DNA of 64,000 nucleotides. It comes from Mesorhizobium sp. 131-2-1. GTDB taxonomy: Bacteria; Pseudomonadota; Alphaproteobacteria; Rhizobiales; Rhizobiaceae. The stretch spans positions 310,001-374,000 of the forward strand of contig NZ_AP023247.1 in the NCBI RefSeq assembly GCF_016756535.1. The letters are read 5' to 3'. A model generated the notes under the pieces. That model had not been told where the DNA came from. It did not search any database and saw nothing but the letters and a program-made list of their open reading frames with translations. Shown one piece after another: positions 58,980-60,235 of the stretch. A program made the translations under genes and the position numbers. Within the stretch, counting starts at the first letter, position 1. Every line of letters begins with the position of its first letter.

Positions 58980-59046
58980 GCCTATCCTTCGTCATTCTCG
59001 GGCTTGACCCGAGGATCCTGTGTGTTTGCTCAGTGCTATGGTTGAA

Positions 59047-59187
59047 GTGGGAAGGAGGCCGAGAGGATCCTGGTCGTCCCTTCGAGGACAGGCCGCGGCA
59101 TGGCTCGGTCCCTTCCCACCAATGAACCATCAACCTGAACAGTTGCACGGGGCTGTCTTCAGCAGACCCCGCACCACAGGAAGAGGC
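59047..59187 (+). ncRNA. predicted bridge RNA of the IS110 element
   Basis: The first stem pairs GTGGGAAGG (59047-59055) with CCTTCCCAC (59111-59119) and CCGAG (59059-59063) with CTCGG (59104-59108). The internal loop bears GAGGATCC (59063-59070), identical to the left target, and CGGCATGG (59096-59103), complementary to the right target plus core. The second domain has ACAGTTGC (59139-59146), identical to the right end of the element, a CGGGG/CCCCG stem, and CACAGG (59175-59180), complementary to core plus left end. This matches the target and donor loops known from IS621. The precise ends of the RNA are not known. Confidence 0.75.
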
Positions 59188-60120
59188 ATGGCCATGATAG
59201 TGCAGAACTATGTCGGCTGCGACATCTCCAAAGCGAGGCTCGACTTCTTTGATGAGGCAAGCGGCCGCTACCAGCGGATCGCCAACCAGGCTGAAGCGAT
59301 AGAAGCCTATGTGGCAGGCCTTTGCGCTGGTCGTGACTTCGTTGTCATGGAGGCGACCGGGGTCCATGACCGGCTGCTGCGCCATGCGCTGGGCAAGGCC
59401 GGCATTGCGTTCTCGCGGCACAATCCGGCGCACACCCACCACTACGCGAAGTCGGCGACCCAGCGCGCCAAGACCGATCGTCTCGATGCCCGGATGCTGA
59501 GCAGCTACGGTCGTCGCTACCAGCCTGCGGCCGAGGCGGCACCTTGCGAGAAAGGCGAACGCCTTCAGTCGCTTGCCCGCCACCGCGACCATCTTGTTGA
59601 GATCCGGGCAAGGTTGAAGAGATATCTCAGCGAGGCCTTCGATGAGGACGTCATAACCGAGACTGAAAGTCTGATCGCCGACTTCGACACACGCATCGAT
59701 GCACTCGAAAGCCGGATTGCCAAAGCCATTCGCGAAGCCGAGGACACCGCTCTCGACTACACGCTGATGGTCTCTGTACCAGGCGTCTCCACCATCACCG
59801 CGCTTTCGCTGCTGGCCCACATGCCCGAGCTCGGCCGGCGCTCGCCCAAGTCGATCGCGGCACTTGCAGGCCTTGCCCCGCTCGACAACGAGAGCGGCAA
59901 GGCCAAGCGCAAGAGCAAGATCAGCGGTGGCCGCCCGCGCGTGCGCCGCGCCCTCTACATGGCGGCGCTGGGCGCCATCCGCGCCAACGATCGCTTCAGA
60001 ACTTTCTACACTGCGCTCGCCGCGCGCTCCGGATCGAAGAAACTTGCCATCGTCGCTGTCGCAAGGAAGCTCCTAGTCACTCTCAATGCCATCATTCGAG
60101 ACAAAACGGCCTTCGCATGA
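59188..60120 (+). CDS. IS110-family transposase (bridge-RNA-guided recombinase)
   Basis: The 310-residue protein has an N-terminal RuvC-like domain with the DEDD set Asp12 (GCDISK), Glu55 (VMEATG), Asp97 and Asp100 (KTDRLDA), a coiled-coil linker (about 135-190), and a C-terminal Tnp_20 domain with VPGVSTITALSLLAHMPE and LAGLAPLDNESGK, in which Ser236 is the candidate nucleophile. All key residues are intact, so it should be active. ATG 59188 was chosen; the frame upstream is the RNA-coding left end. Confidence 0.92.
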   Translation: MAMIVQNYVGCDISKARLDFFDEASGRYQRIANQAEAIEAYVAGLCAGRDFVVMEATGVHDRLLRHALGKAGIAFSRHNPAHTHHYAKSATQRAKTDRLDARMLSSYGRRYQPAAEAAPCEKGERLQSLARHRDHLVEIRARLKRYLSEAFDEDVITETESLIADFDTRIDALESRIAKAIREAEDTALDYTLMVSVPGVSTITALSLLAHMPELGRRSPKSIAALAGLAPLDNESGKAKRKSKISGGRPRVRRALYMAALGAIRANDRFRTFYTALAARSGSKKLAIVAVARKLLVTLNAIIRDKTAFA

Positions 60121-60235
60121 ACACAGTTGCCATGCCGTGACGACTGCCGTAGAATGCAGCGGCGCAAATTCTGCAACCGTTACAACGCCTTAGCGTAACG
60201 GCATGGATCCTAGGGTCTGCGCGCGTCGCTTCGCC

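Follow-up and report, generated by a model that had tools for sequence, protein, structure and literature searches.

An apparently intact IS110-group insertion sequence with a predicted bridge RNA and a CC core in Mesorhizobium sp. 131-2-1

Here, we describe an insertion sequence of the IS110 group in a 64,000-nucleotide stretch of Mesorhizobium sp. 131-2-1 (NZ_AP023247.1, positions 310,001 to 374,000; below, the window, to which all positions refer). The element (59019-60129) appears intact, and we consider it very likely (probability about 0.93) that it is guided by a bridge RNA and uses CC as its core. This reading is well supported because the guides follow their targets across relatives and the RNA fold covaries. 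The guides, the covariation of the fold and of guides with targets, the targeting of a repeat, and the CC in both target and donor are seen in the sequence. Bridge RNAs and the targeting of repetitive extragenic palindromic (REP) sequences are already known; less expected here are the CC core, the missing 5' stem-loop, and the correlation of the core with an aspartate at the position of residue 66 in IS621 (Asp66). A search of the open-access literature, with the Science papers on ISCro4 and supplementary tables outside its scope, returned no report of a CC-core lineage, and a prior report is possible.

Bridge recombinases are under development for genome writing, and the preference of IS621 for a CT core restricts the sites open to it. 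With its CC core, its compact RNA and one protein position that tracks the core, a natural lineage of this kind makes core specificity directly testable and could help to show how bridge recombinases might gain flexibility. Moreover, elements that are aimed at host-specific repeats and whose guides change with the target provide a clean natural record of guide reprogramming.

The element, its guides and its relatives

The features of the element and its surroundings, each with the evidence on which it rests, are as follows.

58990-59018, plus strand: left half of the target, CGTCATTCTCGGGCTTGACCCGAGGATCC, a repeated palindrome with the core CC as its last two bases (sequence)
59017-59018, plus strand: left core copy CC (boundary scan)
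59019-59187, plus strand: left non-coding end, 169 bp (sequence, boundary scan)
59037-59042, plus strand: −10-like box TATGGT (sequence only)
59045-59187, plus strand: predicted bridge RNA with two stem-loops (match to covariance model R1 at 59045-59190)
59063-59070, plus strand: left target guide GAGGATCC, its last CC being the core (scan, guide-target comparison)
59096-59103, plus strand: right target guide CGGCATGG, its GG pairing with the core (scan, guide-target comparison)
59139-59146, plus strand: left donor guide ACAGTTGC (scan, donor-guide boundary setting)
59175-59180, plus strand: right donor guide CACAGG (scan, donor-guide boundary setting)
59188-60120, plus strand: IS110 recombinase, 310 aa (open frame, Pfam, structure-profile matches)
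59368-59370, plus strand: codon of Asp61, equivalent to IS621 position 66; Asp at this position goes with the CC core in the relatives (alignment)
59893-59895, plus strand: codon of Ser236, aligned with IS621 Ser241 (alignment)
60121-60129, plus strand: right non-coding end, 9 bp, ACACAGTTG, the left donor (sequence, scan)
60130-60131, plus strand: right core copy CC (boundary scan)
60132-60140, plus strand: right half of the target, ATGCCGTGA (copies, motif count)
60199-60212, minus strand: second copy of the target motif, inverted and unoccupied, TAGGATCCATGCCG (motif search)

The element thus lies between CC at 59017-59018 and CC at 60130-60131. Its terminal inverted repeats are limited to a short ACACAG/CTGTGT match at the ends, and the combination of a long left end and a short right end fits the IS110 group; a right end of 9 bp does not agree with the layout of the IS1111 group, in which the RNA lies in the right end and the sub-terminal inverted repeats measure 7-17 bp. 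The initial annotation, made from the sequence alone, had proposed a bridge RNA with four guides in the left end, and its coordinates and strings were all exact on read-back. The left target guide (59063-59070) is identical to the left flank (59011-59018). Two guides are reverse complements: the right target guide (59096-59103) of CCATGCCG at 60130-60137, and the right donor guide (59175-59180) of CCTGTG at 59017-59022. The left donor guide (59139-59146) equals 60123-60130, as had been claimed, but leaves the second core base unmatched (A in the RNA, C in the DNA copy); the other three guides match the core CC in full. We at first thought this miss peculiar to the element; however, IS621 shows the same one (GTATCA vs GTATCT).

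The boundaries were checked by a scan of all left/right pairs sharing any dinucleotide, scored by the fit of four ordered guides to the flanks and ends. The CC pair, which had also been the core originally proposed, ranks first of 1411 with a score of 28/30; among pairs at a distance of more than 3 nt, the top score is 25. Among the five full copies in the genome, the same boundary comes first in four; in the remaining copy (locus L005), whose target has two mismatches, a different left boundary is listed at a tied top score of 26. With random CC-flanked segments of the window as flanks, 4/20,000 reach the observed 15/16 for the two target guides. When the same scan is applied to IS621 as a positive control, the known CT boundary shares the top score of 25 with an incorrect CC pair. 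Because of this tie, the scan of a single element is suggestive rather than proof, and the comparison of relatives carries the case.

The 310-aa protein was correctly assigned as an IS110 transposase: it matches PF01548 (E 9.9e-17) and PF02371 (E 8.2e-23), among solved structures it significantly matches two, the ISCro4 and IS621 transposases (profile E 4e-48), and its open frame retains the DEDD and serine residues aligned with IS621 D11, E60, D102, D105, and S241. The nearest relatives among named records (an unclassified bacterium with 78% and Mesorhizobium sp. with 75-76% protein identity) fit the rhizobial origin that had been suggested.

Relatives were gathered as 80 loci from named genomes, 53 from viral contigs (46 of them used later), and 19 from plasmids, together with further genomes; L and G numbers are our labels for loci and genomes. 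The element is rare, with a match at 1e-60 in 4/297 genomes of the family and 6/397 of the order (the window's own genome counted in each), and relatives of L103 were absent at the cut-off from 385 genomes of the class. The window protein as single query gave no match among the viral contigs; alignment A1 as query gave the 53 loci, at 27-43% identity. Boundaries set from the donor guides alone were accepted in 72/106 loci (41 CC and 31 CT, a count in which one genome may contribute several copies). The script used here sought CC or CT only and therefore could not reveal other cores; the all-dinucleotide scan had no such limit. Because of a tie, the donor-guide script misplaced the boundaries of L148 and L149, in which the boundary nearer the gene is the right one. 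It also misplaced those of L109 (Marinobacter persicus), which has unequal core copies, the left looking like CT and the right being CC.

The comparison of guides with targets, a check that the initial annotation had suggested, used 18 distinct elements of the window's clade with varied targets, and guide positions were fixed by the columns of the RNA alignment. (These columns took the place of a regular-expression extraction of fixed guide positions, which had misplaced the guides in many rows; L148, L153, and L078 had their boundaries assigned manually, and L109 was dropped.) Of 11 positions, 9.44 agree between the guides and their own target, compared with 4.96 when targets are swapped, and 0/20,000 permutations are as good. 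The two guides behave alike when taken separately: at non-core positions, the agreement is 5.39 of 6 for the left target guide (2.99 swapped) and 4.06 of 5 for the right (1.97 swapped), again with 0/20,000 permutations each. Restricting the set to 13 elements, without L148 and those with window-like targets, leaves the result unchanged (9.92/11 own, 5.35 swapped). An earlier permutation test with a free guide search also gave 0/5000 but was weaker, with the own target best or tied in only 20/48 cases. As read from these alignments, the relatives represent natural guide reprogramming: a different target comes with altered loops, and both the stems and the donor loop stay recognizable. In this sense only, the claim that the recombinase is programmable is upheld.

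Two relatives deserve mention in their own right. L078 (Labrys okinawensis) carries, directly upstream of the element, a partial second left end that extends up to the left guide sequence; this arrangement looks as if insertion or exchange had occurred in the DNA of the guide itself, which has the sequence of the target. L072 (Shinella granuli) may be inactive because it has Gly at the residue aligned with the catalytic Glu60; its right target guide is a poor fit (2/5).

The RNA alignment and covariance model R1 were built from the 18 distinct elements of the clade, including that of the window. All 18 RNAs fit the predicted two-stem-loop fold, with inner loops that match target and donor in the order left target, right target, left donor, and right donor guide. 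In the stems, 98.6% of the cells are paired, compared with at most 47.8% in slid-partner controls, and 13 of 31 pairs change on both sides (6.6 on average in shuffles, 0/500 as high). The placement of a bridge RNA in the left end was thus borne out both by covarying stems and by guides that follow the target. Of 44 further loci, selected by hand among those collected, 37 showed an R1 match to the RNA upstream of the transposase at E<0.01, and two more did so weakly; it was not found in five (L106, L141, and three IS621-type loci). The same search gave two minus-strand matches (E 0.013 and 0.22). In the window's genome, R1 found the six copies of the element and nothing else at E up to 0.001.

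The left target guide follows the −10-like box after only 20 nt, which include the outer stem of the target loop and leave no room for a 5' stem-loop ahead of it. When the ends are joined, TTGCCT (60127-60131 plus 59019) stands 17 nt from TATGGT; of 50 offsets compared across 28 CC left ends, this −10 position scores highest. Transcription, binding, catalysis, and the order of steps are what we infer by analogy. In this scheme, the recombinase would excise the element as a circle, as in IS621; the joined ends would form the promoter TTGCCT-17 nt-TATGGT and drive a bridge RNA of ~140 nt; the first loop would pair with both strands of the host repeat AGGATCC/ATGCCG; and the second loop would pair with the joined ends, with strand exchange at CC.

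Several observations weigh against this reading. Some guide-target pairs are weak (3/6 in the left guide of L068 and of L076, 2/5 in the right guide of L072, and L022 as well). Eleven of the 13 covarying pairs lie in the target-loop stems and two in the inner donor-loop stem, leaving the two outer donor-loop helices without any, and further pair types do not exceed shuffles (22 vs 23.3). R1, which was built on this lineage, misses IS621's own bridge RNA (L164-L166, none at E up to 1), and an Rfam search of the region gave two unrelated matches only, far below thresholds. Finally, the margin of the −10 position is small (3.29 vs 3.11 for offset 2), the 28 CC left ends include L109, L148, and L149, whose boundaries were later judged wrong, and this position is not the best offset in 26 CT left ends.

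The CC core and Asp66

CC cores occur in two clades: CC1, which contains the window's element (support 100/98; of its 24 rows, 20 carry the label CC and the other 4 have none), and CC2, with five rows and poly-C targets (support 100/100), to which L103 and L150 belong. Target and donor of both clades have C as the second core base. In CC1, the RNA follows in 18/18 rows, with CC at the core letters of the left target guide and GG at those of the right target and right donor guides; in CC2, the right target guide has AG and the right donor guide UG in 6/6 rows, which creates an RNA/DNA mismatch at that base. The CT neighbors shown (n=8, three nearly alike) have AG in the right target guide in 8/8 and CT in the left in 7/8. 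In IS621 and related orthologues, a T at the second core base is described as "almost invariant" and as contacted by the main chain of G63 (PMC11208158; here and below, our comparisons draw on parts of the papers cited). Experiments on reprogramming the IS621 core altered the first base only (AT, GT, TT), and 102 of 117 off-target insertions had CT, so that 15 did not (PMC11208160).

Among all alignment columns, IS621 position 66 (residue 61 in the window) best separates the cores, with Asp in 29/29 CC and 1/54 CT proteins; the next best is Arg82 (29/29 CC vs 8/54 CT). Both IS621 and ISCro4 have Met at position 66. For this count, five core labels were changed by hand (L063 and L076 to CC; L093, L099, and L124 to CT), and L075 (truncated), L102, and L109 were dropped; the label CT was taken from the papers for IS621 and assumed for ISCro4, and the 54 CT proteins include a second IS621 row (L164). 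Fourteen rows without a readable right end were left out (2 Asp, 8 Glu, and 4 His). A later set of 65 loci was examined after the hypothesis had been formed: seven Asp rows read CC, all of them from G492 and near copies of rows already used; the 56 non-Asp rows comprise 39 CT, 9 AC, and 8 unread, and none is CC. L259 and L262, which have Asp in broken genes, were called CC by pattern and excluded from the count. Among the viral-contig relatives, L167-L171, L182, L185, L188, and L190 have His66, and their right end is CGGATAAC in place of CGGATACT; these are possibly a further core variant, AC.

We hypothesize that Asp66 helps the protein to accept C at the second core position, where a nearby Asp side chain could accept the amino group of cytosine. 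More broadly, we tentatively propose that a T-to-C change of the second core base took place in this lineage, affecting target, donor, and main-clade RNA, and that Asp66 is part of reading that base; the mismatch in CC2 would mean that the protein, not the RNA, sets it. As a whole, we consider this proposal possible rather than probable. G63 itself is not the difference: in the rows shown, Gly is aligned with it in all of CC1, and Ser in CC2. The alternative, that CC and Asp66 were merely co-inherited without a functional link, has in our judgment slightly better than even odds. On the tree, two changes of the core and three at position 66 suffice, an independent-pairs test of Asp66 against the core was not significant with too few independent pairs available, and L085 (Aurantimonas manganoxydans) combines Asp66 with a CT core. 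Against mere co-inheritance speak the rank of Asp66 as the best separating column and its location just three positions from G63, the residue that in IS621 contacts T9 through its main chain (PMC11208158). L085 lies near the CC clade in the tree and is a possible intermediate. Because there are only two or three changes on the tree, we treat the link between Asp66 and the core as hypothetical.

Genome copies, the target repeat and other explanations

The genome carries five full copies of the element (1112 bp) and one with an internal deletion, all six inserted at the same point of one repeated palindromic target. The flanks read AGGATCC^ATGCCGT in four copies, AGAATCC^ATGCCGT in L005, and AGGATCC^ATGCCAT in the deleted copy. 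The 14-mer GAGGATCCATGCCG occurs 176 times in the genome with up to two mismatches, compared with 18 times for the reversed control, and the hairpin arm CGTCATCCTCGGGCTTGACCC stands immediately left of the motif in 10 of the 30 best places, which were read with flanks. By analogy with the repeats described in PMC1525189, we call these places REP-like. In two further host genomes, the targets of relatives are likewise repeats, with 237 matches vs 4 in the control for G492 and 106 vs 5 for G524, one mismatch allowed; these patterns exceed their controls in the window's genome as well, less strongly (15 vs 5 and 35 vs 8). Near copies with the same loops in unrelated flanks, which the initial annotation had named as a case that would speak against a bridge RNA, were sought and not seen among the six copies, which share one common repeat.

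The copies bear on the idea that this is a genuine bridge-RNA element that is now an inactive relic. One copy is internally deleted; however, four of the five full copies are identical over 1112 bp, the fifth has one difference seen, and the open frame retains the catalytic residues. We therefore regard an inactive relic as improbable and the element as apparently intact.

Three further observations concern the copies. The deleted one (G000:C1:958980-959634; L006, L007) has lost the middle of the transposase and has kept both ends and the entire predicted bridge RNA; perhaps it could still move, given protein from another copy. The target of L005 has two mismatches to the left guide (TAGAATCC vs GAGGATCC) and provides a natural gauge of guide tolerance. 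An inverted partner of the target motif lies on the right in 4/6 copies (L001, L002, L004, and L005), and in the window this partner is unoccupied.

It is also conceivable that the bridge RNA is real and that its core is CT-like or longer, the CC being merely the repeat's own sequence. In its favor, the target is GC-rich, and CC2 keeps AG in the right target guide and UG in the right donor guide. However, CC is also present in the element's joined ends, that is, in the donor, the CC1 RNA carries the matching core letters throughout, and the CT neighbors carry AG and CT at the same positions; we consider this explanation very unlikely. Least likely of all is that the protein alone recognizes the repeat and the guide look-alikes are by-products of insertion history or shared repeats: all copies in this genome share one target, so that guide and target are inseparable within this genome alone, but guide and target change together across the 18 elements and the stems covary.

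Comparison with known systems

The element with a CC core and a predicted bridge RNA resembles IS621 and ISCro4 (PMC11208160, PMC11208158, PDB 8WT6, 9T56) in having a DEDD RuvC domain and a Tnp domain with a conserved Ser, an RNA in the left end with a target loop followed by a donor loop, and guides of the same order and polarity. Like IS621, which targets a REP, it has a REP-like target and a candidate promoter across the joined ends, published for IS621 and seen here as sequence only. In contrast to both, its core is CC rather than CT, its protein is only distantly similar, and it has Asp66 instead of Met66. A 5' stem-loop before the target loop, present in the consensus of 103 IS621 orthologues (PMC11208160), is absent from the window's element, and the ends measure 169 bp (left) and 9 bp (right) compared with ~191 and 105 bp in the IS621 copy L164.

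ISEc21 and other IS110/IS1111 elements with seekRNAs (PMC11187229) share with this element a target-matching RNA in the non-coding region, an IS110-type match order, and targets that are naturally redirected among relatives; the IS1111 members differ in that their non-coding region lies downstream of the gene and their sub-terminal inverted repeats are longer. REP-targeting IS110 elements were described in 2006, before bridge RNAs, and ISRm19, ISPpu9, ISPpu10, and ISPa11 likewise insert at a fixed point of extragenic palindromic repeats (PMC1525189). Among them, ISRm19 of Sinorhizobium meliloti also has a rhizobial host (PMC1525189). Altogether, the element belongs to a known kind, and its lineage departs from the described type in its core, in a shorter predicted RNA, and possibly in a protein position linked to the core.
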